A DNA stretch of 64,000 nt from Earliella scabrosa. Its lineage: Eukaryota; Basidiomycota; Agaricomycetes; Polyporales; Polyporaceae. Below, piece after piece: positions 30,999-51,674 of the stretch; the stretch's first letter is position 1, and every line of letters begins with the position of its first letter. Below the pieces are notes generated by a model. That model was given only the letters and a program-made list of their open reading frames with translations. It was not told where the DNA came from and searched no databases. The stretch is from positions 1,674,001 through 1,738,000 of the forward strand of contig JABYQQ010000002.1 in the NCBI GenBank assembly GCA_022605405.1, read 5' to 3'. Made by a program: the position numbers and the translations under genes.

Positions 30999-31006
30999 CC
31001 TCGGAC
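30999..31006. repeat. Target-site duplication, left copy
   Basis: CCTCGGAC immediately before the left inverted repeat; an identical 8-mer follows the right inverted repeat. The spacer downstream of array gene 5 keeps a single CTCGGAC at the equivalent place. Confidence 0.7.
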
Positions 31007-31062
31007 GAGAACAATGAAACCATGATGCACATTCCGGCGGAGTCTGGCGGAAGATGCACGTG
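31007..31062 (+). repeat. Left terminal inverted repeat
   Basis: Pairs with 49200-49262. Best-kept blocks are ACCATG-TGCAC and TCCGGC, plus CACGTGAC at the inner edge. Confidence 0.75.
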
Positions 31063-31287
31063 ACCGATGTTGTGCGTGGGTTTGTGCAGCAAGCGCTGTA
31101 CACCAGTGCTTCCAACTTTGTAGGACAGCCGCTTGTGTGTGTGTGCTACAGCATTAGTGCACGCGTCGGTGTAGTCCCTTTTATGTCCTGCAATCCATTT
31201 ATTGTCCATTGCCTATCTCTTCCACTATGCCCGTTCGGTATCTCTTGATTCAGCTGAATATTCACAGCGAGAGAATGTGAAGATCTC

Positions 31288-31405
31288 GTATTCACTCGCT
31301 CTTCATTCAGCAGGACATGTCGCGGTCCTAAGACCGCGTTCCCATCCGTATTCACTCGCACTTCATTCAGCAGGACATGTCGCGGTCCTAAGACCGGCGC
31401 GTCCC
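31288..31405 (+). repeat. 60-bp tandem duplication with internal palindrome
   Basis: Two copies at period 60 (starting 31288 and 31348), nearly identical from GTATTCACTCG through GGTCCTAAGACCG. The first copy holds the 18-bp inverted repeat CGCGGTCCTAAGACCGCG; in the second one arm is broken by a G insertion. Confidence 0.8.
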
Positions 31406-31539
31406 CATCGCCCCCGGTCGTTGTCCCGGCTTACCAAGTGAGGAATACTGTGAGTTCAAACAAACTCGCCACCCCTTTGCGCCTACTGACACTACACTCC
31501 ATCACGCTTTCTTCGCCGCGGGCCGGGTGCACGCTGCGC

Positions 31540-32140
31540 GCCGTCTTCATGCACACCTTCACCCAAATCCATGGCCCCTTCACTGATTCACACTACCCTC
31601 CACCTACATCCGTTCTCCACGACAAAGCGTCTCGCCACCCGCCACCACCCTCCACCTAAATCGGTCAACCCCTCCAACCTCTCTCGCCACCCTCCATACA
31701 GCCCTCCACCTAAATCGGTCACCCCTCCATCCACTCTCCCCACCCTGCCCTTCATTCGGTTACCTCCTCCATTCTCTCTCGCCACCATCTGTTGAGCGCC
31801 ACACCTAAATCTCTCACCCCCTTCACCCAATCTCGCCACCCTCCACCTACAACCCTTACGCACCCACGCCACGTCTCGTCACCCTTCACCCAAATTCGTC
31901 ACCCCTTCCATGCTGTCTCGCCTCCGTCCACGGAGCGCGACCCCTCAATCCGTCACCCCCTCCATCCCGTTCTCGCCACCCTCCACCTCAAACAAGCACC
32001 TCCTCCATCTTCTCTCGTAGAGCGCCAGACCTCCGACCTATGTACGTCACCCCCTTCACCGAATCTCGCCACCCTCCACCTATTTACCTTCCCCACTACG
32101 TGGCCTCTCGCCACCCTCCAACTGTATCAGTCACCCCCTC
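31540..32140 (+). repeat. C-rich subterminal array, left side of the element
   Basis: Degenerate repeats of CTCGCCACCCTCCACCTAAA with CGGTCACCCCTCCA spacers, some ten or more partial units. It has no codon structure despite being open in several frames. Confidence 0.65.
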
Positions 32141-32505
32141 CTCCGTGGCTCGCCCTCTCAGCCCCGGGCGTGTGGTCACGTCCGCATGCGATCCATGATT
32201 TCAATTGCCGTTCACACTGCTACAGTGCTCCGCGGCATCTCGAGGACCTTGCGTCCTTCCCAACGCCGGCTGTCCCCTCACCCTTCGACAACCTGATGTC
32301 CTAGGCTTGTCCTTTGCCGCAACATTGATGCCGCACATCAATGTCGCATTCATCTGGCAGCCATGTCCCCTCGTGTGGGCGATCTCGCGCCCGGTTCCTC
32401 TCCCGTCCCGGAGAGGCTGACCGGTCCGAGGCGCGCGCCGTGTACAAAGCTTGCCGCCGCGAGAAGGCCGCGCTCCTTCTACACCTTTGGTTCCAACTCT
32501 CAACC

Positions 32506-35275
32506 ATGGTCCTGCTCTCTGTCATTGCTGAGAGACTTTCCACGCATAGTCTTCTCTACTCCCACATACACTACGCCCAGCTCGCTGGCTTCTTCACTGT
32601 TTGTCAACGCCTTCTTCCGCTCATCATACTCTCCGCCCCACGCTCTCGCTACGCGTCGCCGGTTCCCCCTCCCCGTGTACTGGACCTTCTAAGCAGTCAG
32701 ACAAGTATCCCTCTGGAATACGTCAAAGCGCTATGGGAACTACTTGGTGATCTCGTGTTATCGGAAGCGGAGGACGCTCTGCAGGTGGGGGCGCGATTTG
32801 AGCAACGCCTCGCCGTCCTGGCCCCAGCTCATGAACTAGGTGCGAGCCATGTCAGCTCCGGTCGCTAGCTCGGCACAACTCACGATCGCAGGCGTCGAAG
32901 TCATGGTTACTCCCTGGCGATCATGTCAAACACCAGGTTGTCGGGAACAGGGAAGGCCCTTGGGCAATCCCCGGCACTTCGCCGGTCACCTGTACACACG
33001 TCGCCGAGGCGTGCTCCCTGTTCGCATTGTTACGTTGTATTGCAAAGGTGCTTCATCTACCGTTGCCATTGCTCTACCTCCCTCCGAACTCACGGCCGTC
33101 ATCAGGATGTAAAACGACCTACCGGGCCAACTACTCAGTCACGAACGCCGAGTCTCCTGCGTCTCGTCGGATCTACAACAGCGGCATTCCCGATGTCCTT
33201 GAGGTCTCGGAGCACACTTATGTTGAAAAGGAGCTGGTGCAGATGTTTCGGATGCAGATGGCATTCGCTCAGTACGTTCAGTCCCTCTCAGCGCGCTCCG
33301 TCTTTGTCTGGGTCCATTAATCTATCTGCGAGCAGCGCTTCCGGGGAGACGGTCGCACGCATGTACAACCTCGGCGTCTCGACGGACCCCGATGCCCACA
33401 ATCTCACGGGAGACCTTGTATGGAACGCCTTTTACGTCCATTCCCTTCTTCTGAATTGCCACCGTCGAGGTGAACAGTTGGACGTTCCGCATCGCTGCCA
33501 CCAGGCCGATCGTTTTTTGGACGCTATCAACTCCCGCAATGATGACATGGTCGGCACGGGTCAGCCCCTGTGGGCCCATGCCTGTGACGATTGTGAGAAG
33601 CTGTACCCGCCTCCGGAATCTGAGGGGCCCAATGGCCGATGGAGTATGTGGAATACCTCTCATGACTCTGTACTACTGGCTCACTCAGTTTTTCTGCAAG
33701 AACGCGTAGCGGCTTGCGTCATGGATGGCATATCGATTGGCCACCCTCGATGCAACATCGAGCGGTGCACCGAGCTGTTGGCGTCTCCTCGCGACCGTTT
33801 CTGCCCTAAGCACCACGAGTTCAACTCGCGATGCGCTGTCAAAGGCTGCGGGCGCCCTCTGAGCGGCGGGATGCGAACCTGCGACACCCCAGATCACCAC
33901 GCGTTTGAAATCGGGAAACGGCAACGGGGTCAGGCATTGTACAAACTTCAAAATCGATTGCACGGGCATAAGTTTCCTCAGGGCCAAGGGCGCGCGCTTG
34001 CCCGCATGAATCTCAACGTCGACGAGGTCACCGACATTCTCGATGCGGCAGCGGCCGCGGGCACGGAAACGGACTCGGGCACTGGTCTCTATCCTCCCAT
34101 TGACCCGACCCTATTGCTCTCGGAATCTGACGCATCTTCCGGCGCGGTTGACGACCGCACTTGTCCAGCTCATCTGGGCGCACCCGAGGGTCACAGTGCC
34201 GCGCACCCAACAGCGCCGCACGTCGCAGCGCACTCCACCTCGGGCTTGCCACATCCCCCCTCTCCGGCCGACCCTCCCGCGCGCACAGGAACCGACCGGG
34301 CTGGGCCGACGGCTGAGACCACAGGCGACGTCCCACTCGTCTATCAAGGTAGCGCTGACCCGGGGAGCATTGCGCAATGCTCTATCAGCCCGGCCGGTGA
34401 CGTCCAGGGCCCTACGAGCGCGGTTCATGATGACGCCCGTGCACCGGGTCCCGCACACAGCCTTCCGCAAGACGTACAGGGAGCCCTGGCTACCCTGCAG
34501 CAACATTCGCCCTCGCCCCCAACTCCCTTGCGCGATGGCGACGCAGTCCCGGCCCCCTCGTCGGTCGGCCCCCAAACCGCGGCCGCTGACGCGCGTGAGC
34601 CCCCTCCCCCTGTCGCGAACGCTCTCGCGACCATCAAGGCGTACATCACTCGCAAGTGGACGCACAATGAGCAGCTCATGGTCCGTCCATGCGGGGTGAT
34701 CATTGCCCGGGCGACATTCTACGAGTCCGAAGGGGTGGATAATGTTCTGGTAAGTGTCTCTCCTGTCCTGCGCGACGTGACGCGCGGTCTGACGTCCCGA
34801 CGCGAAGCGTTTCGTTCGCGCCACGTTCCCGCAGTGGTATCCCCGGGCGCTCCCGAATTTTCTTTTCTTTGACAACAACTGCAGCCTCCTGCGACACCTA
34901 CGCGCCATCGGCGATACTTCGCTCAGCGCCATCGGCCTTCCTGTCGACGTCTTCCATGCGGTTACCAAGCACAAGGAGTCTGACGGCTTCTGTCAGATGA
35001 ACTGCAATCCCGCGGGCTTTCCGGAGTTGCTGACAGCCGACAAAATTTGGCTGTTCAATTCGTCCGCCTGTGAGCAAGTCAACGCGCATTTCGGGGATTT
35101 TGGACCGATCGTGCGCGAGATGTCCGAGCCCCATCACAACTTCTTCCTCGATGAAATGATCATGGTGCTCAACGAGTATCGCGTCTCCGTGCTCCGGAAG
35201 CGCGGCAAGCGTCCACGCTTGGTCCCGACTGAAGAGTTGAGCCTCGAGAGGGAGCCCTTCCACCTCCCAGCTTGA
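32506..35275 (+). CDS. KDZ-type transposase with CxC5/CxC6 cysteine clusters, 817 aa
   Basis: Six exons: 32506-32839, 32892-33047, 33106-33271, 33336-33643, 33701-34749, 34835-35275; all phases agree. The N-terminal part (residues 1-110) is helical. The CxC5-like cluster follows: SCQTPGC, LYTRRRGVLPVR, TLYCKGCKTTYRANY, then HASGETVARMYNLGV. The CxC6-like cluster is AACVMDGISIGHPRC, RFCPKHHEF, CAVKGCGRPL and RTCDTPDHHAFE. A long Pro/Ser-rich linker leads to the C-terminal region typical of these proteins: VRPCGVIIARATFYESEG, FFDNNCSLLRHL, LPVDVFHAVTKHKESD, FNSSACEQVNAHFGDF, VREMSEPHHNFFLDEM. No stop or frameshift was seen, so it may be functional. Expected role: DNA cleavage and strand transfer at the inverted repeats. 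Confidence 0.88.
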
Positions 35276-35680
35276 GGGGCGTTCCGGCGCGGTGTTCAGG
35301 CTAGCGTACCAGAGCGCCACAGGTCCTGTGCACGCTTTCCCCTTGTAACTACCGCTCTGCCGGCTCCAATGCTATCACTCATCGATGGTGGCACCCACGC
35401 AGGCGCCGTCATGGTTCCTATCCACCGGTGTGTCCGCGACATTCGCTATCTCGATCGATCGGCAGGTCTCGATCATATCTGTGCCTCGTAAGGCGCGCGC
35501 GCGGGTCCGCCAAGCCGGGCGAGTTGATGTTATGTCAATTTGCCGCCTTTCGGGCCCCATTCCGAGGACACGCGCGGTCGGGCCCCCGCAGCGCCCATTC
35601 TTCGCTACCGTCCCTCCTTGCGAGCAGTCTCTTTCTGCGCCGCCCAATCGACTTCACTCGCCCGACAGCCGCTCGCTCCC
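35276..35680. other. Gap between the transposase and the next cargo gene
   Basis: About 400 bp. Reading frames here are Arg/Pro-rich without splice partners and are not supported as coding. Confidence 0.45.
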
Positions 35681-36369
35681 ATGAACCACACCACAGCTCT
35701 CTCTTTGCTATTCCAATTCCCTTTGTATGTCTGCGTCCCGAATACTTGCCTCGGGATGAAGGTGAGCAGTCGCATGCAATATCCTCGGTCCCGTCCTCAC
35801 CCGCGACGCGCCCGCGGCGCAACAGCGTCATGTTCGTCTTGACATCGCCCTGTACGGCATGGGCTATGAGTTCGTCGTCGCGGAACTCTTTTGGCAGGAG
35901 CTCGACCCTGCCTATCCGCACGGTCCTTGCCCCCAAGTCCCACCATTCTGGCCTTCGTCCCCCGAATACGACGTTCTCATGCCCGCCAATCCGCTCAACG
36001 ATCCTATCTACATCTGCGTCCGGAAGCTTGGGGCGTTGTCATCATCAGTATGTATCTCTGCTATGGCGCGTGCCCCTCCGCAGTATGTACTCATCCCCTA
36101 CATAGCAGCCTTTCGCGATCGTCATCAGGCTGCGTGAGGAGGGACACGGCATCGTGGCGACAGTGGGTCTCCGGCTCCTGCCTGCCGGGGGACACACCCG
36201 CACAGGGCCATGGCGGGTTGGGATCGAGCAGGAGGACGCTACGGCAGTACGTACCACTGGCAATCCATCTCTGCCCCTCCCCCCCGCGTTGTAGTATGTT
36301 AGCGTTCGCACCACAATCATACTTCCCCCCCTCCCCGGGCGTTCAAGAAGTGTCACTGCTCTCTCATAA
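35681..36369 (+). CDS. Element cargo protein of unknown function, 172 aa
   Basis: Four exons: 35681-35761, 35826-36047, 36106-36246, 36295-36369, with introns of 64, 58 and 48 nt. Composition supports coding: FPLYVCVPNTCLGM, LDIALYGMGYEFVVAELFWQ, PPFWPSSPEYDVLMPANPL, DPIYICVRKLG, then FAIVIRLREEGHGIVATVG. No known domain was recognised. The last exon is short and Pro/Arg/Ser-rich, so the 3' end is the weakest part. It is the only cargo gene on the same strand as the transposase and lies 405 bp behind it. Confidence 0.5.
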
Positions 36370-36606
36370 ACGGCAGACGCGCTCGTGGTCTGCGTGCGCT
36401 CGCCAGAGTTGAATGGCTGCTCGAAGTGTGGCCTGTCTCGGTCGTTCTCGTAAGGGGTAATTGTAGGGTTGCGGAGGTACAACGGTGTACGGCCCCATCG
36501 TTGGCCATGCGCGAGGTAGTAAGGTGACGCTCGTCTTCATTGACGTTTGGGACACTCCGGGTACGTAACACAGGTGTGCGATACTCTTTTACGACGGCCC
36601 ACTACT

Positions 36607-38437
36607 CTACAAGTTCTCTCCGAAGCGTCGGCGTTTGGTGGGGGCGGTGCTCGCCTGCGGGGAGGGCGGTTCGCGGGAAGGACGCACTTTGCATACCTCG
36701 CGCGGCCAGGGGACGGCGACCGAGCCTTCGTTCGACGACTCATCAGACCCTCCAACATCCATGTCGTCGGCAGACCTCAAGTCCGAGTCTGAGCCATCAG
36801 GTTCGTCGTCAGTGCCATCGTCCTCTGAGCCTCGCCTGGTGGCGCGCGCGCCGGCTCCGCTAGCGCGCGCTGTGCTGGCCTTCGAGGGACCAGAGGGCTT
36901 GATGACAGCCGGGCTCAAGAGGCGCGTGGCCGTGGTCGCAGTCGGCGGCTGTGCCGGAGGGGTCGGGAGCGTTGGCTCGAGCTCGCCGAGGCGGATGGTC
37001 TCCCGCAGGGCGAAGAGTAACGTGTGCACGTGGAGTCTGACGGTGTAGAAACCGTCGAGCAACGCCTGGATTTCGCCGCATGCGCCATAGCTCCGCAGCA
37101 ACTTCGCGCACGCGCAACACTCGCGCACCCAGCCCGCTCGACGACGGAGGTATCGTCCCACGAGCTCCGTCGTGACCGGTCGTCCGTGAATCATGGGCCA
37201 GGAAGGCTCGTCCACCGTGCCCAGGGAACACATGGCTTCGACCACGTCGATCCAGGACAACACGCGGGACACGCGGGCGGGTCTGTGTTTGGCTGCGATT
37301 GCGCGTATTTCGGCCACGATCTTGTCCCAACCGGCCATGTTGTTGGCGTACGTGTGAATGAAGTGAAGCATGGCGTACTCAATCCCACGAGCGAGGTCCG
37401 CAGACTGCTGAAGCGAGGCGACCATCTCCGGCGGAGGCCCGTCAAGGAGTATCACGTCGTCGTCGCTGCCGTCTTCGCCACCACCAGCACTCCCGGCGGA
37501 GGAGGACAGTAGGCTTTGGGACGATGCCTTGCGCGGCTGTAGGGGTCCCTGCAAGGTCAATGTCAGCCTCGTATCGCGCACGAAGGAAGGAGAGTGGCAC
37601 TCACGCCGGTGACACGAAAGTCGGCCGAGAAGTGGTAACACGCCAGATGCGAGGGGACTGTCTCAGGATCGAGGGGGTCAAGACTGATGTACGCGAGGTT
37701 CCCAGTCAGCTCGATGTCGGCGGCCCCGCGCACGATAGCAAAACACTGCCAATGCATTTGACCACGAGCCTCGATCCGGCCACTGAGGAAGAGTTGGCCT
37801 GAAACGTCGTGCGGCAGACGTCAATAGCAGGCGCATGGGGCGAGCCATGACGATGCTCACCTCGTTCGACAGGGACGACTTTCGCAACAGCGGTGGCCAC
37901 TCGCATGACGTGGATTTTGACCGTCTCGTCGGCCGGATGCAGCCGGAGAAAGACATCTGGCGCGGTGACGATGAGACCCTGTTCGCCTGCCACTCGTCGG
38001 AGATCTTGGCCGAACAGCACGATGTCACCCCGACCATGCAGATCCTCCTCGGAGGGCCACGGGGCACAGCCTACTGGGAGGAGGGGGCGATGACGTCTCT
38101 GCGCGCGTCGCTATCAGTACGACGTTGGGCCCGGAGGAGGAGCCAACATACCGGGCGGCGATCACCACGCGAGGTCTCCGAGGCAAAGTCCTCGTGCTCT
38201 GGGAAAGAATCCTCGCTGTCGATGTCCAAATCATCTTCCGAAAGCGCATCTGCAGCGAGGTCGGAGCCACTCCGGTTCGAGTCGGACTCGCTGGCGTCAG
38301 GCCCGGGCGGGAAGTACTCAGGGTCAGACTGGTGCCCTCAAAGCGTCAGTACGGCGACAAAAGCGCACGAGAGGGGACGAAGTACTCACAAATCCGCATT
38401 CATGCACTGCTGCCGCAAAGTTGGGGTCGTCCGGCAT
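36607..38437 (-). CDS. Cargo protein, GRG-x-I-x2-F-x-QDLR family, member A, about 519 aa
   Basis: Six exons: 38390-38437, 38166-38328, 37861-38073, 37605-37798 and 36607-37548, with one weak junction (donor GTGATC at 38165) that nevertheless keeps phase. Order of parts: FAAAVHECGF; an acidic Ser/Asp/Glu stretch (LSEDDLDIDSEDSF); a conserved block GRGDIVLFGQDLRRVAGEQG; a beta-rich block RGQLFLSGRIEARGQ, WQCFAIVRGAADIEL; a helical block (ARGIEYAMLHFIHTYANN, VSRVLSWIDVVEAM); a Pro/Ser-rich acidic tail; and the basic end TKRRRFGENL. Its paralog at 41742 shows the same order. Not recognised from any known family. Exon boundaries near 38.1 kb and the start are uncertain. Confidence 0.6.
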
Positions 38438-39122
38438 TGTCGCAGAATGTCGTTCGCCCACGGGGTCCGTTCTGCATAGAGATATGGTCAGCATGGGAGT
38501 TAAGCTCGCAGGGCTGACAGTGAGCGCTCACCCTGGAGGTTCGCTCCGAGGCCGGGCACGACAGTGTCCTTCATCGCGGGCGGCTGCTTATGAATGTGAC
38601 GAGGTACGGATGGTGTGGCCGTGCCCCGATTAGGCCGCATGAGACATGGGCGGCCGGGTGAGGGTCAAAGGAACTTGTCGATTTCCGCGCCACCGTTGTG
38701 GCGGGCGCGCGCGATGGGGTCCGGGGCAAGGGAAGCTGATGGTGGTGGTCAATTCTGCTCACCATCATGGGTGTTTGGTTTAAGGCTCAAACGGCTATTC
38801 CATCAGACATCAGGACCCGTAGCTTGGGGATGATGAAGGTAACAAGACACCAGAGGGTACGCGATGGCGCATCGATGAGTGTGACAGATCTGATTGTCAC
38901 ATTATCTTGAGTCGGCTATTGGTACGCCGTCACCGGTCACCTATGGCCGGTCCGAACATTGCGCGCAAGCAAACCTTGCCGTCGAGCTGGGGCACTCAGT
39001 GCGGGATACGCATGAGGTAACGAACCCAAGATACATTTTTCGCCGGCGACTACCACACTAGTGCCCATGTCTCGCGCATCCCGTTCGCCCTCGCACCATC
39101 CCTCCTCCGTCCACCCGCCAAA
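38438..39122. other. Spacer inside the element
   Basis: May hold further 5' exons of the minus-strand gene to the left (a coding-like frame ends at a GTGAGC donor at about 38530) and the 3' end of the gene to the right. Nothing else is supported. Confidence 0.35.
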
Positions 39123-40007
39123 TCACGTCAACCGATGGAGCTCCCAGGCACGCAACACATTGTGACGAGCACAAGGTCCTCCGCACGGCCGCAAGTCCAA
39201 ACGCCATGTCACCCGAGGATTGAGGGGCGCGTCCGCAATAGGACTGACGCGCGCGAGGATCGAATGTGGGTCGGTGAAAGTATGCGCTTGGACGGGGCAG
39301 CAACCATGCGCGGCAGCACACCGCGGATGATTGAGATCGGGCCAGAGAGATGTCGCCAGTCGCACCTCGAACCCTGCGGCTTCGTACCTCGGAATGTATT
39401 CGTGTTGGTGGCGATCATCGTCCGCGATTAACGCTCGGCGCATGAACATCAGCTCGCGGTAGGCGCAGCCGAAGTAGCGTGGATGAACGAAGTTCATGAC
39501 CGCGGTTGTGTAGCCACGGACGATGGGGGAGAGGGCGGTGTGGGTCGCGCTGCGAAAGACCACGATTTGGCCGAGGGGAGAGCGTAGCCACGCGATGCCG
39601 GACAACGCACGCTGTTCCAAACCCTGCCCCTCCATGTCCTCGGGAGACGTCTCGCCTTCCAACCACGCGCCCTGTCTGTGTAGGAGGTGGAAGATGAGAC
39701 GGGAGTAGTAACGGCGGGGCACGAATAGATCGAGGTTGCGGGGCCGGATGGCACCGTCCCCGAGGAAGAAGGGTATGGAGCTGGACCCGCCGACAAATGT
39801 ATAATAGTCGACCAGCGTCCGCATGAGTTGATCGGGCTCGGTAACGAAGAGCGCGAGGGTGTAGCGGAGACGGCCGTTCAACACCCACGCGATCGCGGCG
39901 AGGGCGAGTTTGGAGGCTCTTCGAACGCGCATCATTTCGGCGAAGGTGAGGAATAGACAGACATGTTCGAAAGCCTTGGTGAGGGCGATGTCGGCGAAGC
40001 GCGCCAT
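39123..40007 (-). CDS. Cargo protein: F-box-like start plus nucleotidyltransferase-like strand, 294 aa
   Basis: Single exon. The start MARFADIALTKAFEHVC is the first Met with good composition; an earlier ATG at 40394 adds a Pro-rich, unlikely stretch. Residues 10-45 (FEHVCLFLTFAEMMRVRRASK) look like an F-box variant. Next comes VGGSSSIPFFLGDGAIRP, NLDLFVPRRYYSRLIFHLL and GAW, the pattern of a large agaricomycete family in which a Gly-Ser turn is followed by a D-L-D-[IL]-[YF]-V-P strand, reminiscent of nucleotidyltransferase folds (inference). Here the first acidic residue is Asn. The C-terminus holds HPRYFGCAYRELMFMRR and a Cys/His-rich end. Related in plan to its neighbour at 40482. Confidence 0.65.
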   Translation of the reverse strand: MARFADIALTKAFEHVCLFLTFAEMMRVRRASKLALAAIAWVLNGRLRYTLALFVTEPDQLMRTLVDYYTFVGGSSSIPFFLGDGAIRPRNLDLFVPRRYYSRLIFHLLHRQGAWLEGETSPEDMEGQGLEQRALSGIAWLRSPLGQIVVFRSATHTALSPIVRGYTTAVMNFVHPRYFGCAYRELMFMRRALIADDDRHQHEYIPRYEAAGFEVRLATSLWPDLNHPRCAAAHGCCPVQAHTFTDPHSILARVSPIADAPLNPRVTWRLDLRPCGGPCARHNVLRAWELHRLT

Positions 40008-40481
40008 GGCGTATGGCGTAGACGGGGGAATGGTGTATGAGGTTGGAGAGCTTGGAAGGAGCGGGTTCAAGCAAGTGGGGTGCCACAGAGGGTTAGGAAG
40101 TGACGGGGGCCCCCGAGTCATGCACAAACGCTTGCGCGGCGTTCGTACCTCAGGCCGAAGGCTCCGAGCATTAATCTCTGGTATCTCCTCGAACGGGAAA
40201 CTTGATGGATCGCGGTTGCCTGGACTGATTCCTCGGGACGCCATCAGAACGGTGGCCTCCACTCCCAGATAATCACGCACCTGCCTTGGGCCCTGGCAGA
40301 TTAATCCATTATTCGCGCCTTGAGCCGACAAGCCGGGTGAGTATTGCGGTGTTGGCGTACACGACCGCGCGCAACAGCTTTGCGCAAGACGCACGAGCGG
40401 CGCCCGACGTGGGCAGTGACAGGGAGCAACGATTCATTGCGTTCAGCATGTAACCGAGCCCGCGTTTACAGCACAAGCACA
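40008..40481. other. Spacer inside the element
   Basis: About 470 bp between two same-strand genes; probable promoter and terminator space. No motif stood out. Confidence 0.4.
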
Positions 40482-41567
40482 TTAACTACGCCCCAGTAGA
40501 CTCCAGACACATCGACGCGTCCCAGGGCCCACGCTGTGCGCTCCAGAGTGGCACAACGCGTCGCATGTATGTCCCCCTCTCCACCACAGCACAGTCTCCT
40601 CGGCGATTGGGTCATGGTCTTTGTCCTCCAACGAGGCGGTGCCGAGTGCGCGGAGGGATCCGAAACTGCACATGCGGTCGCGGAGGAAGCGGATCTCCAC
40701 CGCACACCCAGCGAGTTTCCCGCCCCCGCACGGCCCATCGAAATCCGTCCAGAAGGACGACAATTCCCATCCCACCCGTTCGTATCGTGACACCTCCGGG
40801 CGAAGGCGGCGAGGAGGTCTCGAGAAATCCCTGAGGACACTGGGATTCATGAGACCCTGGCGCTCGCGGGTGAGGTAGGGGTAGGCGGAGCAGAGCGAGA
40901 CGCCGGAGATGTAATTGAAGAGGCCCGAATGCCACTGGGTCGTAAGCGCGACCAGGGGACTGGGGTCGGAGCATTGATAGAGGTGGAAGATGACTGTCCC
41001 CTTGCGGACTCGATCGCGCATGAGCAAGCACGACGGCAGAGTCTCGTCGTGGTCTTCGTCGTCCTCATCGCTTGAGCTGGACTCTGAGCCCGACGTATCG
41101 CTCGCGCTGGAGTCCGAGTTGGACGTGTCCGACACACTGCCCTCGTCCTCTGCGATCCCCTCTCGGTCGCGGCGACGCTTGTCCGGGGGTGGAGGGAAGT
41201 GCTCGGACACGAATCCTACGGCGCGCAGAGACGCCCGGAAGGGTCTGAAGGACATTTTGGGGAGGTAGACGTCGATGTACGTCGGGATGGGGTGTTGCGG
41301 ATAGAGGATATGGAGGGCCGCCTCTCCCGTGATGATCCCGCCGCGTCGATGGAGCTTCCCCATGAACAGTTCGCATTCGGCCACCCCGATCTGGAGGACT
41401 GCGGCGATCCGGACGAGGAGATGGTATGCGACATATTGGTCGGCAGTATGAGAGGTGAGGCGCAGGCGGACGAGCGCGTCGACGTCGAGGAGGTCAAGGA
41501 TTTTGATGCATACGTCGACCACCAGTGACGGCAGGAGAGGGGCCGAGGGGTACCCTTGGGACGACAT
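40482..41567 (-). CDS. Cargo protein: F-box plus nucleotidyltransferase-like strand, 361 aa
   Basis: Single exon starting MSSQGYPSAPLLPS. The F-box-like segment is LPSLVVDVCIKILDLLDVDA and VRLRLTSHTADQYV (residues 12-46). It is followed by GGIITGEAALHILYP, PTYIDVYLPKMSFRPF and LRAVGF, matching the G-[AG]-x-I-[ST]-G-x-x-A-L-x-x-L then [ID]-D-V-Y-[LV]-P pattern of the same family as the gene at 39123. A Ser/Asp/Glu-rich insert (SDTSNSDSSASDTSGSES) separates this from a second globular part (VIFHLYQCSDPSPL). Function unknown; possible roles are ubiquitin-ligase adaptor or nucleotide transfer, neither shown. Confidence 0.7.
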   Translation of the reverse strand: MSSQGYPSAPLLPSLVVDVCIKILDLLDVDALVRLRLTSHTADQYVAYHLLVRIAAVLQIGVAECELFMGKLHRRGGIITGEAALHILYPQHPIPTYIDVYLPKMSFRPFRASLRAVGFVSEHFPPPPDKRRRDREGIAEDEGSVSDTSNSDSSASDTSGSESSSSDEDDEDHDETLPSCLLMRDRVRKGTVIFHLYQCSDPSPLVALTTQWHSGLFNYISGVSLCSAYPYLTRERQGLMNPSVLRDFSRPPRRLRPEVSRYERVGWELSSFWTDFDGPCGGGKLAGCAVEIRFLRDRMCSFGSLRALGTASLEDKDHDPIAEETVLWWRGGHTCDALCHSGAHSVGPGTRRCVWSLLGRS

Positions 41568-41741
41568 GGCAGGACGAGAGGTGAGTGGATAGATCGAGCA
41601 CGCACGGTCTAGCAGAGGAATTCATGTTATGTAATCGTCCCAATAGGACGAGAAATCGCACGGCAAGGACGGAGCCACGTGGTAGCAGACACGGACGCAA
41701 AGCATATCGCATTCTCCATGTACATCGACGACACAGAATAA

Positions 41742-43840
41742 CTACCCTCTGAACTTGGTGTTCTCCCGTTTCCTGGGACGAGGTCCAACTAGGCCCGAGC
41801 GCCCTGTCCGACTCGCTTTCAGAGCGCGCAGAGCCAGCACAACCTTCTTCGACGGTCGACGCTTTGGGGGTTTGGTGCCATCGTGCTCTGGCGTTGAGGC
41901 TGGGGCCCACGGACCTTGGGCCTGCGCCCTTGTATCGGATGCAGGTTCCGACTGACCTGCCTGAGCGTCGTCATCGGCCGCGTCGTCAATGGATGGCGCA
42001 GCCCCCCGCACCACGGCCTTGCCCCGTGGAGCCCTGGGAGCAGGCTCGCTGCTCGACACGCTCCTGCCCGCATCGTCAGACCGCATTGAACCACTCTCCT
42101 CTGATGAACTGATCCCCCCGCCTACATCCGACCCATCCACCACGCTGACGGGCGCCCTCGCCGAGCCTGCGCGACTGCTGCGCGCGCGTGATTCCGTTCG
42201 CAGAGGCGAACGACTCTCCCGCACGCCCCGCGGGCCCGAGGTCGAGCGCAGCACGATTTCCTGTTGCAGAGCCTTCGCCGACAGGACCCCGATGAGAGGA
42301 TGAGGTCCGCGCTCTGGCCCGGCGACGCTCCACTGAATGAGGTTGCGGAGGGTCTTCACGCCCAGGGTAACATCGTTGCGATGGGCGCGCTCAATCTCGA
42401 CGAGCATGGCGGTCTGATCGCGGTGCTGAGTATACAGGCGCCAGCACTGCAACGCGAGGGCGGTCCACTGGGGGCCGCGGTGTATGAAGGCGGCAACGTG
42501 CGCCTGCGTGATACGGCGTTTGGGAGCTTCCTCCAGCGTGGCGTCGGTATGCCCAACGGCCATCAGCTTGCTGGTCGTTTCACACCAAGTCAGCAGTTCG
42601 GACACCACTTGGCCGACGTTCAGGTTGGCCGTAGCTCGCATGTCCTGCACGCCGGGGAGCTCGAGCAAAGCGCCGTCGCGGTGAGTCTCCATCCACGCGA
42701 CAATGGCTTCGGTGATCGCGGTCTCATCCTCCTCACTGTCGGATTGCGCGCGTGCCTTCTTCGGCCGCCGGAGCCGTCCTGCCTCCTGCGGTCCGCGTGA
42801 GCCCATGGTAGGCGGATCTTGCAAGGCGAGCTCAGGTGTGCGGCCGGAAGACTGTGCGCCAACGCTCTCGCGCCCCACCTCGGCTGAAGCATCGCGCGGC
42901 CGTTTCGATGGAACGCGCGTGGGGCGCCCCTCCACCCGTCGCGCCCCGCCGCGGCGCGGCACGCGAGGGAGCTGTTCGTCGTCGAGCTGGAAGGCAACGA
43001 GCGTCAACAAAGTGCCACATAGCTCGGGCGTACACTCACTCCTTCCAAAACGAAGTCGAGGGCCCACTGCACATTGTTCATGGCGCGCCTCGGGTGCACC
43101 GCCACATGCGGAGCCAGGTCGGTCTCGCCTTGCGAGAGCAACTCGTACTGACCGGGTTGCTCTACCAGCGCCAGTCGCTCATATGCTACCTCGCAGTCGA
43201 AGTGAATGGGAACACTAATGTATGCATCCCCTGTCCACGCATAAGGTTAGAGGGGCCGAGGAGACAACAAGAGGGAAGATGCGTACTCGCGCGCGGCACC
43301 GCATGTGCCACCAAAGCGTCAACAAGAACGTCGTTATCCAGCGCGACCTGTTCGCTCTGCCGATAGTATCGGAAAGGTATGTCTCTCAAAACGGTGACGA
43401 CCTTGCGGCGTCCCTGCGCCGCGACACGAAGATCTTGCATGAAGGCGGCGATGTTGCCGCGTCCAACCCATGCTGACTGAACCGCGACATCAAAGGCGAG
43501 CCACAGAGCGCCGCGGATAGTCAATCACGCACCTCGTCCTCGTCCTCGTAATCCTCCTCCTGACCCTCCTGTCCCCAAGTCCCCTCACTCTCCTGCTCCA
43601 GGTCAGCCCTTCCAAAGCAGCATCCTAAGCGCGAAATCTACTGACGTAGCCACAAGCCCGCAGGGCTCGATCCACCAGTGTCTCAGCCGGTCGAGCTGGA
43701 GAAGCCGGGCCATCAAACTGAGGAGCGTGTCAGCAAGCAGGCGACCAGGGACTTTGGGAACATACGAACTCCTGGACGAGCGGCGGGTAGTCCCTCCCAA
43801 CCGTGAGCGATCTCCCGGTCAAACTCGGGAGTGTCCCCAT
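41742..43840 (-). CDS. Cargo protein, GRG-x-I-x2-F-x-QDLR family, member B, about 610 aa
   Basis: Six exons: 43766-43840, 43646-43717, 43533-43592, 43287-43476, 43040-43230, 41742-42986; every junction is in phase and introns are 48-56 nt apart from one of 53 nt. Order of parts: YPPLVQEFFDGPAS, ETLVDRALRACGY; acidic EEDYEDEDE; GRGNIAAFMQDLRVAAQG; IPFRYYRQSEQVALDN; RDAYISVPIHFDCEVAYERL, ALVEQPGQYELL; then a helical block (ITEAIVAWMETHRDG, VVSELLTWCETTSKLM), a Ser/Pro-rich acidic tail and the basic end RPRKRENTKFRG. The same order and several identical positions occur in the gene at 36607. Not recognised from known families. The first exon overlaps, in another frame, the open tail behind the next gene. 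Confidence 0.65.
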
Positions 43841-44360
43841 GGATTCCCGCAGCTTTGCGCGGTGGGACGCCGGCCGACACGCTGCCATGGCGCGGTGGGG
43901 AACCTGAAGGGGCCCGGGAGTCATGCGAGCCTCCAGAGGTCCGTTCTGACCCATCCTGCCGCTGAGAGCCCGTCGACGGAGGCCGCATGGAAGGTTCAAC
44001 TGGGGTGCCGAGCTCGGAGGCAGCGCCTTGGAAGCCCAGGCCTGCGTCGAGCGATCCCGCGCGTGGACCTTCGGGGACTAGAGAAGCCCTGGAGGATGCC
44101 ACCCTTGGGCAGACGTCCTGGCCCGTGGACGTCGCACCCTGCACGACCACGTCTTGGGAGGGGACGTCAACACGACCTGGGTTAGAGCCGTGAGCAGCGA
44201 GCGGACGGGTGAGCTTAGGAGCCACATCGGGCGACGGGATACGCTCTGAATTCGGAACCGGCGCTTCAGGGACTGGATGAGCGTCGGCCGCAGGAATTGG
44301 ACCCGCGTCGCCTTCGGGAATGGAAGTGAGAGGTGAGGAAGGCGTTTTGGCCGGATCCGC
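43841..44360 (-). pseudogene. Open Ser/Pro-rich tail behind a TAG stop
   Basis: The frame of the gene ending at 44361 continues after its TAG with no further stop down to 43713. It encodes a Pro/Ser/Ala-rich sequence (ADPAKTPSSPLTSIPEGD, VPEAPVPNSERIPSPDV) like the tails of the two GRG-family genes. Either a nonsense mutation cut a longer protein or the openness is due to composition. Confidence 0.4.
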
Positions 44361-44868
44361 CTAGCGCGCAAGCTCAGATGAGACCGTTTTCGGCTCAACA
44401 GAGTAGGTTATGCTGACCTCAGAAGGTGGTGGCACGTCGACTCGGCCGTGAATCACCAAATCGTACACATGCCAGTCTAGCAACCACTCTCTGCGACTGG
44501 CGCCGCTGGGCACCCGCCGGGACACCCTCGTCTCCGAGTCACGCCAACGCAACAGTCTGTGCCAATTCACGGTGACACCCTCCGTCTCGAGACATGACAG
44601 CAGCTCCGCCCGGTCGCGGAGAAAATTCGCGCGCTCGGGAACTTTCAGCCACAGCCGTACCAAAGCCTGAGCATAACGGAGATGAGCTCGAGGACCCTGA
44701 CCGCCCGCGGAACCATACGTACTCGTACTTCTGAGGCGTCAAGCCTGGCGCTATAGAACTAATGAGCACACGCACCCATGGGACGACGGAGATAGCATAC
44801 ACTTACATGTCAGCGGGCGAGAGCAGCACACGTTCGGCGTCCTCCTGCACCCCTTGAGACTCAGACAT
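44361..44868 (-). CDS. Short cargo protein with helical block, 143 aa, possibly truncated
   Basis: Exon 1 (44807-44868) starts MSESQGVQEDAERVLL. A 76-nt intron (44731-44806) leads in phase to exon 2 (44361-44730) with LRYAQALVRLWLKVPERANF, LSCLETEGVTVNWHRLL, REWLLDWHVYDLVIHGRVD. It ends at a TAG followed by a long open frame. The helical segment has the same position before a Ser/Pro tail and a similar L-L-x-W motif as in the GRG-family genes, so it may be a remnant of a third member lacking the N-terminal half; that link is weak. Confidence 0.5.
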
Positions 44869-45641
44869 AGTGAAGATGGGGAGCGGGAGTCAGTAGGAAC
44901 CTGCAAGTTCAGGTGGGGCCGTCCGGGGCCCAAAACGTGCCGTTTCTGACCACCGTGTGCGTACTCCAAGTCGCTCGGCGAGACCGCATGACCCAAGAGA
45001 CTCAGACGGCGCGTGATTGCGTGGCGACACCACGTACTAGCGAGATAACAGATAGACCGTTCGTCGGCGCAGCGAAATGGTGATCGCGAAGCACGTTCCG
45101 AGTGGCTCCGTTGGACCTCATCCTGATCCCTGCCGGGAACCGTACTCCGCATAAGGACACGCCCACGTCCGTGATCCCTAAGACATATCCACGTGCCCCG
45201 AAGGTGACTCGAACTGGAAAAAAACGGAGGCCGGCGATGCAACCATCTGGCAGCCATGCTGATCGTGGCACGAACGGGAACTGTTCTGATGAGTGCTTTG
45301 ACGAGGGCGCGTAAAATGTAGGCTAATTGCAGGCGACCGACAGCCCTTAATTGTTTGGGATGCACATTAATCCGCAGTGGATCGTCGACGACATACGATC
45401 GGGTCAGGAACGGTGCAGATGGGTGCCAGGGGACCTTAACCATGCGCGCTAGGCGACCCGATAACGATCGTACTGAGACGATTCATGCTCAGTGATTGCC
45501 GCCCACGCGTGACGGGGATCATTGTTGTCAAGCGGACGAAACGCCGAATTGAGGCAAGCAGCGTGGAGTCGCGGGCCGACGGTATAACATGGACTGGGTA
45601 GTACGGCTAAATACAATTCCGACAGAAGACGCAGAGCCCGC
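44869..45641. other. Spacer inside the element
   Basis: About 770 bp with no frame of convincing composition. It should contain the promoter of the 143-aa gene and the 3' end of the zinc-cluster gene. Confidence 0.4.
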
Positions 45642-47419
45642 CTAGCGAGTCTTGTATTTCGCGTAGAGATGACACCACTCGCCCTCGGCCGTCCGTCCGT
45701 GTTTGACCCATGCGGCGACGTCGTCGGGGTGTTGCAATGCGGCACGCCATGCCGCCCGGTTCTGATAGAAAGTTTGCCTCACCGGAGGGCGCCCGAAGGC
45801 ACTCTGAAACGCGTCCTCGGTCTTCAGTCCGTCACGTTGGAGCTGCTCCATCTTGGCAAACCCGGCAGCCATGTCGACGACATAACGCAGCGGCCAGCCA
45901 GACCGCCCAGTGGGAGGAGCAGCGCCATCCGGAGGAGGAGCGATGATCGCGGAGGCGGCCATGGTGGATAATAATGAGGGCAAGGGTGGTTCAGGCGGCC
46001 GAACGTCGGACGGAGACTCCGAGCCCCCGAGGTCCCCACACGCGATATCTCCAAGTTCGCCTGTGGCGCGGGAAGATACCGTGGCTGACGAGGACGGTGT
46101 CGGAGCCCGAGACGAGGCAGCGGAAGGGGATAGGGATGAGGAAGACCGTGTGATGGGAGTCGAGGGTTGCGCTGAGGACGGCGATGGAAGCCTGGGTGTC
46201 CAAAGCGCGCTGCTAGAGGGCCACGAATGCGCGGCCTGAGGTGTTGTCCATGGGCTACTAGTGCCTAAGATGCGGCGGGAAGGAGTGATCGGCGGGGCAG
46301 GCGAGGGCTCGCAGTCGGGCATGTCTGGCCCGTCCGTAACACCATCAGGCCGGTAGTGCAACTCGCCCGCGGTGAGGACGCTGCGGGCCCCCGTTTCGGA
46401 TGAACCGTCCACCCAACGATTGAGTTTCCAATCGAAGGACTGCCAGTCGATCGTATCAACCTTGTACTTGGCGACAAGATGGGGCGAGTCCTTCGGGTGG
46501 AACATCGGCCAACGGTTAGGTGCGATGTCAACAGGAACGAGCCGCGCTGGAGCGCCGTCCTGAGCTAGCGCGTCAGCGGACTCGGACACACCTGCGATTC
46601 AGGGCCCGAGGTACGTACCTTCTCATGCCAGTACACCACGACGCGCTTGGCTTCGTCGGCGGCTGCTTGCTCGGCACGAACCTGACGTTCGGCGCGGCGA
46701 CGCTCTTCGATGTCCATGGCATCGACGCGCTGCGCATAGCGCGACGAAATTGACGTGGCGAACAGAGGGGCGGTGGAAGGCGGATGTTCTCTAGCGGGAA
46801 CAACCGCGGCTGGCGACAACGCATCTACCGAGGCAGAGGCAGCTTGAGGAGCGGCTGTCTGCTGGATGAGTTGGACACCACGACGACGGGCTGTGGAGGC
46901 GTGCTTAGTTCGCGGCGGAGACGATAGAGGCATTCGACTGGCTCACTGGTAGCAGTGGGAGCCCGATTGTGCGTGTACACGCGGCAGGCGCGTAGACGAA
47001 GGACGGCATGGGCGTGTTGACAGCACTGTGAGCATAGCCCGAAGGAGCAGTCCTGGTTGATGCGGTGTGCTTGTGTCAAATTGCGACAGTTCATCCCTGG
47101 GCATGTCCTGCGATCTCCGACAAGCGACCCGGGCGGACGACGGCCTTTCGGTATGTCACGTCGCCAAGTGAAAGCAGGGCAGGTGTCATCCGTGTCGGGA
47201 AGAAGAACGACGCACTGCGGGACGAATGTGCATGGGCGCGACAACAAGGTGTGGGAGAGGTGGGGGACTTACGACTTGGTACCAGCAATCTGTGTGATTA
47301 GGATCCTTCTTGCCGCTGCAAAGGAGGGGCATACTTAGGCGTCCATGATCGCAGTGCGAGCACGGCGTGAGGTGAGCCAGAAGATCGGCGGCCTCGAGGG
47401 GAGGCTGGGAGTGAGACAT
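45642..47419 (-). CDS. Cargo zinc-cluster protein with WPMFHPKD motif, 534 aa
   Basis: Four exons: 47273-47419, 46947-47214, 46619-46890, 45642-46559, introns 56-59 nt, all in phase. The N-terminus is Cys/His-rich: PCSHCDHG, LLCSGKKDPNHTDCWYQ, TCPAFTWRRD, RTCPGMNCRN, NQDCSFGLCSQCCQHAH, enough ligands for several zinc ions. Next is a Pro/Ala linker, a charged helix (ERRRAERQVRAEQAAADEAK) and VVVYWHEK. Then come RWPMFHPKDSPHLVAKY, a Ser/Pro-rich region and a C-terminal helical domain (RYVVDMAAGFAKMEQLQ, TFYQNRAAWRAALQHPDD, WVKHGRTAEGEW). It resembles a widespread uncharacterised agaricomycete family often seen near transposons (from memory). DNA binding is plausible, not shown. Confidence 0.75.
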
Positions 47420-48758
47420 GAGGATCGAGGTGAGAGGGATGGGTGAGGAAGACAACAAGGGAGGAGAGACGCGGTGAAAGAGTGACGAGGGCGGGGAAAA
47501 GGAAGGCGAAGAGGGAAGTGATGTCGATGGGTGAAACGAACGAGGGAGGAGAGACGCGGCTAAAGAGGGATGAGGAGGACGAAGAGGAAGGTGAAGAGGT
47601 CAATGATGGCCAAGACGACACTGGGGGCCGACGTGAGCGAGGTCGATGGCGACTGGCAGAAATGCTGGGGCGAGTCAACGCCGTCGGAAGGAGGGCGCAG
47701 GAAGGGGTGAGGGTGGGGCACGAAGATTAGGAGGGCGCGAGGGTGCACCGAGGGACGATCAATATATGTATATATATATGCGACCGCAGATGAACTATGC
47801 AGAACCAATCAGCCACCAACCGGGCGCACACAAGGATGTTGAAGAGTGCGTCCGTGGTGGTCTGTATGTAACGTATGAAAGCGCCCACATAAGATATACA
47901 TGCCGCAGAGTTCGGTGCGGAGGAGGGCCAGAGACGCGTGCGGCGGCAGACTGCGCCCCGCGTGAGTCTACGTGATAGAATGGCAGATGAGTAAAGGGAG
48001 GGGGAGAGCCCGTTGGCTCTACGTACCGATAGGAGGCCACGTTGGAGATCGGGGGAAATCCCTTCAAAACGACTTGAGGGGAGGATGCGAACGGCAGCGC
48101 GTGGTGAGGGGTACTGCGACCAGGGTTACGAGGTAGTGGAGGGTGCCGTGTGGCGGTGCACAGGGGCTGGCGCTAGGCGTGCAGAGACGAGACGCCAGAA
48201 CCCACCAGAAGAGAACAGGTGGTGCATGATGGAAGACACGCATCCAGAGGGTGTACGTTCGTACTAAATGACAGTGAGGTTGAGGATGCCTGGTCAGCGA
48301 ATATGGAGACCATGGGCGGGGGGAGTTCACCGAAAATGGATTGAGGGATGCGAGGTCGAGAGGGGAGATGAGGTTGGGGGAGGGGTGACGTTGTCATTAT
48401 GTGGGAAGGGTGGAGAGGATACCGCGATGCCTTGAGAGGGGTGGACCAAAGAGTGCACCGATTGGCGAGGTGGGTTGTACGTTCATTGAGTGGGGGGGAA
48501 GTCCGTGACCCGAATACGGGGGACGGTGAACGGTGTGTTGCAATCGGTGGAGGGTGGGTAGAGCTTTGGTGAATGGTGAACATATCGGGGTAGCGATATT
48601 GGTTGCACTGTGCCGGGATGGACGTCACGAGGACCATGGATGGGTGGAGGGTGGGTGAGGTTTCGGTGAATGACGACCATGTCGGGGTGAACGGTGAATG
48701 GGTGCCCGGCTGTCGGTGAAGGACAACCATCGCCGGGTGGCTAGATGAATGAGCTGGG
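47420..48758 (-). repeat. G-rich subterminal array, right side of the element
   Basis: Purine-rich and GGTGG-rich DNA, for example GGATGGGTGGAGGGTGGGTG near 48635. Its reverse complement has the same CACCCTCCACC core as the left array, so the arrays are mirrored. An ATATATGTATATATATAT stretch at about 47762-47779 is the most AT-rich point. No gene is supported here. Confidence 0.55.
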
Positions 48759-48820
48759 GGTGCATGGGTGCAGGTGTTTAGGTGCATGGGTGCGGGTGAT
48801 TAGGTGCATCGGTGCAGGTG
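48759..48820 (+). repeat. 22-bp tandem repeat, about 2.8 copies
   Basis: GGTGCATGGGTGCAGGTG plus TTTA, then the same unit with GATTA, then a third with one change. Starts at 48759, 48781 and 48803. Confidence 0.8.
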
Positions 48821-49199
48821 GGTGCATGGTGAGAGCGGTGATACATCAAACGAAGATAGTCGAGAATTACCTTGATCAGGGTGGATGGTGAGGCAAGTGC
48901 TGGATGATATCAGCCGTAATCGGGGGGACTGTAGGAGAAGATACGTCAGGTAAGCTGCACTGCTCGCGCAGCACATACATGTACGTCCTGGCGCACGGCG
49001 AGACAACGAATGGATGTATTGGCCACGAATGTTAGATGACATTGCGCTACAGTAGGAGTACATGGGAGGGAGGTGGCGTCATGAGGGAGGTGGCGTCAAT
49101 GGGATGAAAGGTACGCATACTACGTGGGACACGGGAGGAGGCTAGGAACTGCAACCGCGGGCAAAGACGATGGAGGAGGGACGGAGGAGCGTGGGATGA

Positions 49200-49262
49200 T
49201 GTCACGTGAAGCGGATATCCGGCGGAGTCTGCCGGAGGGTGCAGCATGGTTCCGGCATTCTG
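49200..49262 (-). repeat. Right terminal inverted repeat
   Basis: Read from 49262 inward on the minus strand: CAGAATGCCGGAACCATG, TGCACCCTCCGGC, then CACGTGAC. Pairs with 31007-31062. Confidence 0.75.
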
Positions 49263-49270
49263 CCTCGGAC
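49263..49270. repeat. Target-site duplication, right copy
   Basis: CCTCGGAC, identical to 30999-31006; array spacer homology (CTCGGACCGTG, TAGTGCAA) resumes here. Confidence 0.7.
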
Positions 49271-49753: not shown

Positions 49754-50918
49754 ATGTCAGGTAACACACAGCTTGTTCTCGTTCTCGGCGCAACGGGCTC
49801 GACTGGTCGAAGCATCGTCGATGGACTTCTGAAGGCGGGACAGTTCGTGAGTGCTGCGCTCGTGTCCATCCGCCGCACAACATACTGAATGTGATCGCTA
49901 GCGTGTGGCAGCACTGATACGCCCTGCATCGCTCTCGAAGCCCGAGACCGAGCGTCTGCGCGCTACTGGCGTAGAAATACGCGAGGGCGACGTCACCGAC
50001 GACTACGAGAAGCTGAAGGCAGCGGTCAAAGGGGTGGACATTCTGATCAGCGCGGTTTACGCCCTCGTCATTCCCTTTCAACGGGACATCTTCCGTGCCG
50101 CAAAGGAAGCAGGCGTGAAGCGCGTAGTTCCTTGCGACTTTGCCACGCCTGGGGCAAAGGGCGTGCGCTCCTACCACGACATCGTAAGTCACAACTTCGA
50201 CTCATGTTATGGGGACGATGGAGCTGACATCTTGGACAGAAACTCGGGATTCGGGAGTACGTCAAGGAGCTCGGCGTCGGCTACACGAGCATCGACGTCG
50301 GATGGTGGATGCAAATCTTCTTGCCGCTGCCCCTCCGCAGTGCCGCTCCTATGCACGCCAAGGAGCTCTCTTGGAAGACCGCCGGGGACGGTGAACGCCC
50401 CAACTTGCTCACGAACCTCGACCACATCGGGACCTGGGTTGCTCGCATTATCGTCGACCCGCGCACGCTCAACCAGGCGGTGATCGTGTGGGAGGACGAG
50501 GTGACGGCCAACGTCGCGCATGACATTGGCGTGCGCGCCTCGGGTGACGGGGACGCTCTCAAGGCGAAGCGGATTCATGTGAGTACCTCATTGTCCCGCA
50601 TCCGCCCCTCGACGCAAGTGATGAGGCTGACCGATGGGCGCGACGTAGGTGTCCGCCGAAGAGGTGAAGAGGCTGCTTGAGGAGGGCCGGAAGGAATATG
50701 CCGAAGACCCGAAGAACTATGCCGCAATGTTCAAGCTTTTCATGAACGAGTATGCGTACAGCCTGCACGTTCTCGGCGAGAACACCCTGGAGAACGCGAA
50801 GAAGCTCGGATACCTGGACGCGCGCGAGCTCTACCTTGACATCCCCGTCCAGCCGTTCGCGGAGTACGCGAAGGAGTTCTACGCGTTGAAGGAGCCGGGC
50901 GAGGTGTACAGGTTCTGA
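49754..50918 (+). CDS. NmrA/isoflavone-reductase-like protein, 327 aa (array gene 4)
   Basis: Exons 49754-49846, 49902-50183, 50240-50578 and 50649-50918 (93, 282, 339, 270 nt). The cofactor motif is VLGATGSTGRSIV, with Ser instead of Gln. Others: RVAALIRPASLSKPETE, VKRVVPCDFATPGAKG, SIDVGWWMQIFLPLPLR, WVARIIVDPRTLNQAVI. It is the closest relative of gene 5 in both coding and promoter sequence, sharing the MSGNTQLVLVLGATG start. It is the first array member to the right of the transposon. Confidence 0.87.
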
Positions 50919-51668
50919 GAAGGGCGAGGAGGATCAGGTTGGGTTTAGTTTGTAGGTACGAGTCCATACGACTGTTTCACTCATTGTCGCGCTCTTAGCT
51001 AACCACACGGCTCAGTAACGAACTCTGTTGAGTCAGCATAACCATGAGCGTCAATCATATGGCGCCTTCGCATCTTGCTTGAGTGTCTTCCAGTTGATAC
51101 GGAGAAGCTCACACCCAGTTTCAAACGCTCACGCAGGTCGTCGCCATCTTCGAGCCAGTGAGGAGCCTCGGCCCTCGGCCCGTTGAAAGCTGAGCTATGC
51201 TGTAAGTGAGATCCCGACGCCGCTAGTGGAGCAGGAACTTCAAGTTGAAGTGGACTTATACTGCCCACCTGTTGCCGACTCGGACCGTGCTACGCAAGTA
51301 GTGCAAAAATGACGTGCAAACCATAAGTACGTCGTCACTTTGCATTTACCGCGAAAATTGAGTGCGAATACATGAGTCATCCTGTATGACATTCTGCGAG
51401 ATCCTCCGCGGCCGAGTCCCGAGTTCTACAATGTACATAAGTACCCAAGGGTGCCGTAGTTGGTCAGATCAGATAAGTTGATGACCCGATCGGCTCTCTC
51501 TTTGCGGCCAAGTGTACTCTCTTTCCTGTTCAGGTATGTTCCAAGTGCACTTTGTTCCATCCACTGGCACTCACGCTGATCGTGCAGAGGCTCTCTTAGA
51601 AAGCTCTAGAGCAGTTCCGAGATTCGGTCATCAAGTTAGGAGAGCACTGTTGCCCCTCAAGCAGTGTC
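50919..51668. promoter_or_regulatory. Array spacer 4-5 and promoter of gene 5
   Basis: The left part carries the spacer block that also follows gene 3 (GTCGTCGCCATCTTCGAGCC at about 51138). TTGCCGACTCGGACCGTG at about 51262 is the uninterrupted counterpart of the transposon insertion site. The right part matches the promoter of gene 4. Confidence 0.65.
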
Positions 51669-51674
51669 TATAAG
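51669..51674 (+). promoter_or_regulatory. TATA box of NmrA-like gene 5
   Basis: TATAAG in the context GTCTATAAGAAT, 78-83 bp before the start codon; same position and context as in gene 4. Confidence 0.6.

Follow-up and report, generated by a model that had tools for sequence, protein, structure and literature searches.

A probably autonomous multi-gene DNA transposon with a probable CxC5/CxC6 transposase in Earliella scabrosa

A 64,000-nucleotide stretch of the Earliella scabrosa (Polyporales) genome (GCA_022605405.1, contig JABYQQ010000002.1, 1,674,001–1,738,000), here called the window, carries an insertion of 18,256 bp at window positions 31007–49262. Its inverted ends and fixed 8-bp target-site duplications (TSDs) identify it as a DNA transposon with terminal inverted repeats (TIRs) of class II, cut-and-paste type. 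We are fairly confident that the element is complete and structurally intact, that it is probably autonomous, and that it belongs to a 17–24 kb multi-gene family in this species. The host species was supported by annotated proteins identical or nearly identical to those of the window.

Ends and target site of the element

The insertion was delimited by the following features.

30999–31006, no strand: left TSD, sequence CCTCGGAC
31007–31064, + strand: left TIR (transposase side), tip GAGAACA, with two TCCGGCGGA-type motifs at ~10-bp spacing (element positions 27 and 37)
31560–32154, no strand: left subterminal degenerate repeats of the CCACCCTCCACCTAAATC type
48543–48820, no strand: right subterminal degenerate repeats
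49201–49262, − strand: right TIR, tip CAGAATG, with two motif copies (element positions 18212 and 18222)
49263–49270, no strand: right TSD, sequence CCTCGGAC
51274–51289, + strand: unoccupied target in the paralogous spacer that follows in the NmrA-like array

An original prediction, made from the letters of the window, had proposed an identical 8-bp duplication on both sides, and this was found as stated. It had also placed imperfect TIRs of about 60 bp at 31007 and 49262; these ends were confirmed, and the repeats were refined to about 58–62 bp with gaps. Local alignment of the two ends gave 38 matches in 51 columns (75%), with 9 mismatches and 4 gap columns, and at each end the aligned core was set 11 bases into the element, in register with the 8-bp duplication. 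The end-to-end alignment score was 35 against a maximum of 34 among 19,868 random pairs of 100-bp window stretches, indicating a similarity above chance, by a narrow margin and under generic scoring. With a 45-column model of the family ends, which includes the window's own ends and the left end of a C11 element, the window ends scored 51.7 and 49.9; none of 20 shuffled windows exceeded 9.4 on the one strand scanned.

The insertion interrupts a spacer between tandemly arrayed NmrA-like genes (Pfam NmrA 1.3e-11, one exon); the array spans window positions 25882–57065 and has at least seven copies of varying similarity. The joined flanks of the element aligned to 50850–51910, where the target site occurs once, unduplicated, at 51274–51289; homology to this paralogous spacer breaks off and then resumes at the insertion, as had been predicted. 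The element was inserted after duplication of the host gene array. Its ends, the duplications and the empty paralogous site bore out the claim of a complete TIR transposon. The G+C content of the element was 60.8%, against 56.5% in the remaining window. A second direct duplication was seen elsewhere in the window (11512–14277 and 16585–19392, ~71–80% identical).

Related elements in the genome

A pattern derived from the family ends, with up to three mismatches allowed, was scanned over the whole 51.7-Mb genome. It gave 32 matches, against none for the reversed control; five of the 32 were second matches within one end, and some of those with three mismatches are probably due to chance. Among eight pairs of facing ends at 1.6–24 kb spacing, seven had a perfect 8-bp TSD and one matched at 7 of 8 bases. 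Among the single ends, the one on C16 was traced to its partner; six others lie on C19, C29 and C32 and at C2:128731, C17:645359 and C1:1268532. Ten elements were delimited in all, nine with perfect 8-bp TSDs and one with 7 of 8 bases, and their targets differed; the copies with related ends and 8-bp duplications at other sites that the original prediction had anticipated were thus present. Besides the window copy, four large elements (16.6, 16.7, 24.3 and 21.4 kb) had related ends and perfect 8-bp duplications.

C9:1264776–1281407: large element, 16,632 bp, GGGTGACC on both sides
C17:227916–244588: large element, 16,673 bp, TSD GAAAAGTG
C1:95594–119847: large element, 24,254 bp, TSD ACCAAATC
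C16, last unit from tip to tip: large element, 21,446 bp, TSD GAAGGAGG

Five short derivatives of 1,661–2,706 bp had a longest frame of at most 258 amino acids. They had mostly the ends in common with the large elements, and two of them also ~450 and 750 bp with an end of the C1 element. In the family ends, a ten-base unit of the TCCGGCGGA type was repeated in tandem, two or three times over. The C11 left end, with an atypical tip and a perfect TSD, was omitted from the end model used in a later scan of 18 further stretches, in which an end was found in one; the transposase stretches in that scan mostly reach 1.5 kb past the match and need not include ends.

The element at C9:1264776–1281407 came to light in a scan of a transposase locus; its far end was located by searching 5.5 kb for the GGGTGACC 8-mer, which the end motif directly adjoined. 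A sibling on C2 shared 99.1% identity with it across 3,285 columns and 97.4% across the next 663; from the exact tip outward its flank was wholly different (30 bp compared, at one end). Because these near-identical siblings diverge exactly at the tip, recent transposition is likely to lie behind the pair.

The transposase-side end of the C16 element was located at 522168, followed by GAAGGAGG, and the other end of its last unit coincided exactly with the junction of a tandem repeat of 19.56 kb. The region C16:461607–522168 consisted of three ~19.56-kb units, 99.9% identical over the 3.48 kb compared. GAAGGAGG was predicted ahead of the far end of the first unit and then found at 461599–461606; it is therefore probable that a single 21,446-bp insertion was later tripled and that one of the breakpoints fell precisely on its tip. 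The first two units had no transposase-side end and abutted the exact far tip of the next unit, and the third was complete. Such tandem units suggest either a transposition gone wrong, one-ended or replicative, or a tandem duplication from a transposase cut, and they may also be an assembly artefact.

Transposase, gene F and the other genes

Homology defined a transposase and five or six further genes (A to D and F, with E counted either as part of D or by itself), fewer than the "at least seven cargo genes" first claimed.

32341–35275, + strand: transposase with CxC5 and CxC6 and candidate D/D/E residues (annotated P0002, 538 amino acids, C8Q76DRAFT_608605)
36607–38110 (approximate extent), − strand: gene A, a helical protein paralogous to D, with a relative in C9 alone
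39123–40007, − strand: gene B, 294 amino acids, predicted F-box and nucleotidyltransferase fold; relatives in C16, C17 and C9
40482–41567, − strand: gene C, paralogue of B, 361 amino acids; direct relative in C16
41742–43246 (approximate extent), − strand: gene D, with a conserved middle part and a tail of low complexity; related directly to genes in C16 and C9, and through those to one in C17
44361–44738, − strand: segment E; direct relatives in C9 and C17, and through C9 in C16
45642–47419, − strand: gene F, cysteine-rich, four exons, 534 amino acids (P0001, C8Q76DRAFT_689393); relatives in C16, C17 and C9

The two zinc modules attributed to the transposase were recovered by Pfam (CxC5, 7.7e-31; CxC6, 1.4e-23), and neither the gene model nor the annotated protein contained a reading-frame lesion, in agreement with the first description. 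A first model of 900 amino acids agreed with the annotation except for two introns and the start; a conserved exon within 32329–32865 points to a start upstream of that annotated. Splice structure was settled for the transposase apart from these points, and for gene F, whose model equalled the annotated 534-residue protein. At least 13 homologous proteins were found in Polyporales, four from Earliella (that of the window included) and nine from Lentinus, Ganoderma, Polyporus and Lenzites. In 13 aligned proteins, the D of CVMDG (D233), the D of FDNNC (D405) and the E of CEQ (E472) were invariant. Alignment by hhalign with three KDZ cores gave an expectation value (E) of 0.00096 over 95 columns, in which FDNNC was aligned with the D..C motif of KDZ and CEQ with CER.

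A transposase lay within 30 kb of gene F at 16 of 20 loci, on the opposite strand in all 16, and at most 2.4% of the genome lies that close to a transposase. Three of the 16 loci are the repeated C16 units; the count took in all 56 transposase matches and 67 of the 70 F matches, the three omitted ones overlapping C16 matches already included. On C26 a canonical KDZ match (472197–472921) was seen between the transposase and its F gene, which are 28 kb apart; it may be a nested insertion that accounts for this spacing. Two 3.5-kb stretches, C21:336501–340500 and C27:541501–545000, 99.9% identical, carried a relative of F with no such transposase match within 30 kb. A search of 5.8 billion proteins, which requires shared five-residue words and has limited candidate lists, returned only F itself; as it also missed F relatives present in the same genome, this does not make F unique.

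The four copies compared (window, C16, C17 and C9) all had the CxC5/CxC6 gene. Genes D, E and F kept a common order and strand in all four, and B was present in each, at varying places. Given this conservation, most of the apparent cargo would be largely the element's own genes, contrary to the term first applied to them. Segment E may form the 5′ part of gene D or may be a small gene of its own.

Pfam detected no F-box in six B/C proteins, the F-box being seen by fold comparison only, and the predicted nucleotidyltransferase fold of B and C appeared to be without its usual first acid. Among 20 open reading frames (ORFs) of the element scanned with Pfam, shorter ORFs being outside the scan, nothing besides CxC5 and CxC6 scored above the cut-off; no tyrosine recombinase, no hAT transposase and no hAT dimerisation domain was matched. 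An NCBIfam scan of five proteins gave no match. TET/JBP had 39 matches genome-wide and none in the window element. Two TET/JBP-like matches below the cut-off were seen inside the C16 element, on the transposase strand (C16:514458–514715 and 475341–475577; 33.5 bits against a Pfam cut-off of 34.9). Relatives of B lay within ~0.3–3 kb of TET/JBP matches at C35:279469, C13:1516862, C24:644416, C28:51649 and C16:513347, hinting at a pair that may recur outside this element family.

Alternative readings and relation to known elements

Several observations weigh against an intact, autonomous KDZ-like element. The KDZ core profile PF18758 was unmatched in all four CxC5/CxC6 proteins scanned, at E up to 10, and the hhalign probability against the KDZ cores was 22%. 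Foldseek with the predicted transposase fold gave no match at E ≤ 0.001 among 93; the mean predicted local distance difference test score of this model was 60.8, with the core mostly below 60, so that nothing is concluded about an RNase H fold. Five of 21 transposase loci had no F within 30 kb. The order of A and B differed in C9, and B lay beyond F in C17. A gene-bearing copy at C9:1777001–1801437 had no end recognisable in the end-model scan. The best other relative of the window copy was 48% identical in protein, so that there is no near-identical sibling to attest movement of this very copy.

The last point bears on the possibility that the insertion is a decayed relic, in which the ends of a former transposon survive and mobility has been lost. 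The window copy is indeed a singleton by protein similarity. The splice phases of the genes had been taken to indicate selection rather than decay, and positions 1 and 2 exceeded position 3 in all 12 in-frame codon comparisons (13 were run, one out of frame being dropped); the same pattern appeared in 35 of 40 unrelated gene pairs aligned alike, so it was withdrawn as evidence of selection, another point against the favoured reading. The transposase and F, however, are open and annotated, and the C9:1264776–1281407 relative and its C2 sibling point to recent movement in the family, which makes a relic unlikely.

In a Starship-like carrier, accessory genes acquired by accident from the host would accompany a transposase, differ from copy to copy and perhaps benefit the host. 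Gene B belongs to a large family (at least 133 matches in the genome, most away from these elements), and B and C may therefore have been captured; their number and place vary between copies, and the C16 sibling has the TET/JBP-like match that the window element lacks. However, D, E and F are constant in order and strand, F is a regular partner of the transposase, the Pfam-scanned ORFs gave nothing else above the cut-off, and the element is small for a Starship. Since most of the genes are found again in relatives, Starship-like cargo was rejected for them, the idea being mostly refuted for F and D, and for the element as a whole we hold it to be quite improbable. The tyrosine-recombinase captain of Starships is Pfam DUF3435.

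Both hAT and KDZ transposases are known for 8-bp duplications. The CxC5/CxC6 protein might then be a passenger on ends moved in trans by a hAT or canonical KDZ enzyme encoded elsewhere, for which there are 129 exon-level PF18758 matches outside the element and a protein that itself escapes that profile; but no canonical KDZ match lies inside the window element, its scanned ORFs gave neither hAT nor KDZ, the CxC5/CxC6 gene accompanies all four copies, and the invariant D, D and E with the weak KDZ similarity speak for an enzyme, leaving this reading little probability.

We therefore return to the CxC5/CxC6 transposon. It appears, from its sequence features, to behave like a KDZ cut-and-paste transposon within a multi-gene CxC5/CxC6 family. 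The name "KDZ-type" stood in so far as the transposase has the KDZ-associated cysteine clusters CxC5 and CxC6. The weak hhalign similarity hints at a possible distant KDZ relation; in the strict sense, with PF18758 unmatched, membership is unproven.

KDZ1–3 of Cryptococcus have TIRs of 139–241 bp, a KDZ core with CxC1, a size of about 9–11 kb and TSDs of 8 bp (KDZ1) or 4–8 bp (KDZ2/3) (PMC12810828). The window family resembles them in its TIRs, in 8-bp TSDs (as in KDZ1), in a zinc cluster in the transposase and in being large for DNA transposons; it differs in having CxC5/CxC6, no PF18758 match, ~60-bp TIRs, a size of 17–24 kb and a larger recurring gene set. TET-bearing Kyakuja/Zisupton elements of Agaricomycotina carry an extra gene beside the transposase; Zisupton has TIRs and 8-bp TSDs, and two Kyakuja families have 7-bp TSDs, CA..TG ends and no TIRs (PMC12730594). 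Extra genes, the Zisupton-like ends and duplications, and the TET/JBP-like match in the C16 sibling are points of likeness; the window element, unlike them, has no TET/JBP match. A fish Zisupton isoform has an F-box (PMC12062965), a precedent for F-box proteins in this neighbourhood.

Pleurotus ostreatus has CxC5/CxC6 ORFs, including a 6,792-bp insert in poMSH4, and two Pleurotus genomes have 44 and nearly 60 copies; no KDZ transposase was reported at the expected distance, and a link to Copia retrotransposons was proposed (PMC7641404). Neither "inverted repeat" nor "target site" appears in the main text of that paper. Both sets are multi-copy mushroom genes, and one Pleurotus insert interrupts a gene; in contrast to the Copia reading, the Earliella family points to the CxC5/CxC6 protein as the transposase itself. 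The ascomycete Starships reach about 700 kb, hold hundreds of accessory genes and are classified by their tyrosine recombinase (PMC12134995). They too are large multi-gene mobile elements of fungi, but the comparable scale once proposed does not hold at 17–24 kb, and TIRs, 8-bp TSDs and the lack of a recombinase match in the scanned ORFs set the present family apart. Large KDZ elements with 8-bp duplications (PMC12810828) and transposons with TET/JBP genes (PMC12730594) are already in print; no earlier description of delimited CxC5/CxC6 elements was found in the open-licence papers searched, and their novelty is provisional.

In the mechanism that we propose, the CxC5/CxC6 protein would act as a transposase of the DDE type and cut the element at its two tips (GAGA.../CAGA...). 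Its zinc modules would read the tandem TCCGGCGGA-type motifs, a plausible binding array, and insertion would follow with an 8-bp stagger. Gene F, the regular partner, would most likely supply a second transposition protein for end binding or complex assembly, and the short derivatives, which share these ends, would be mobilised in trans. The remaining proposals are given in order of falling certainty: B and C would most likely be adaptors through which the SCF ubiquitin ligase of the host reaches a partner; A, D and E would be partners of unassigned role; and TET/JBP in the C16 sibling might, least certainly of these functional proposals, help by demethylation.

From the defined ends, the TSD and the partner genes that recur, annotators gain a workable definition for such elements, including the high-copy CxC5/CxC6 genes of Pleurotus, for which the earlier study delimited no element (PMC7641404). 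An alternative reading of the spore-less mutation used in mushroom breeding may follow. The family would offer a testable two-protein transposition system, and the apparent cargo of some large fungal elements may be element genes. Tentatively, and with more doubt than belief, these elements could represent a superfamily-level basidiomycete group that unites a CxC5/CxC6 transposase, a dedicated cysteine-rich second protein and F-box/pseudo-nucleotidyltransferase adaptors recruiting the host ubiquitin ligase. If so, the adaptors would act against silencing or set the transposase level, and the transposon would carry its own counter-defence module.

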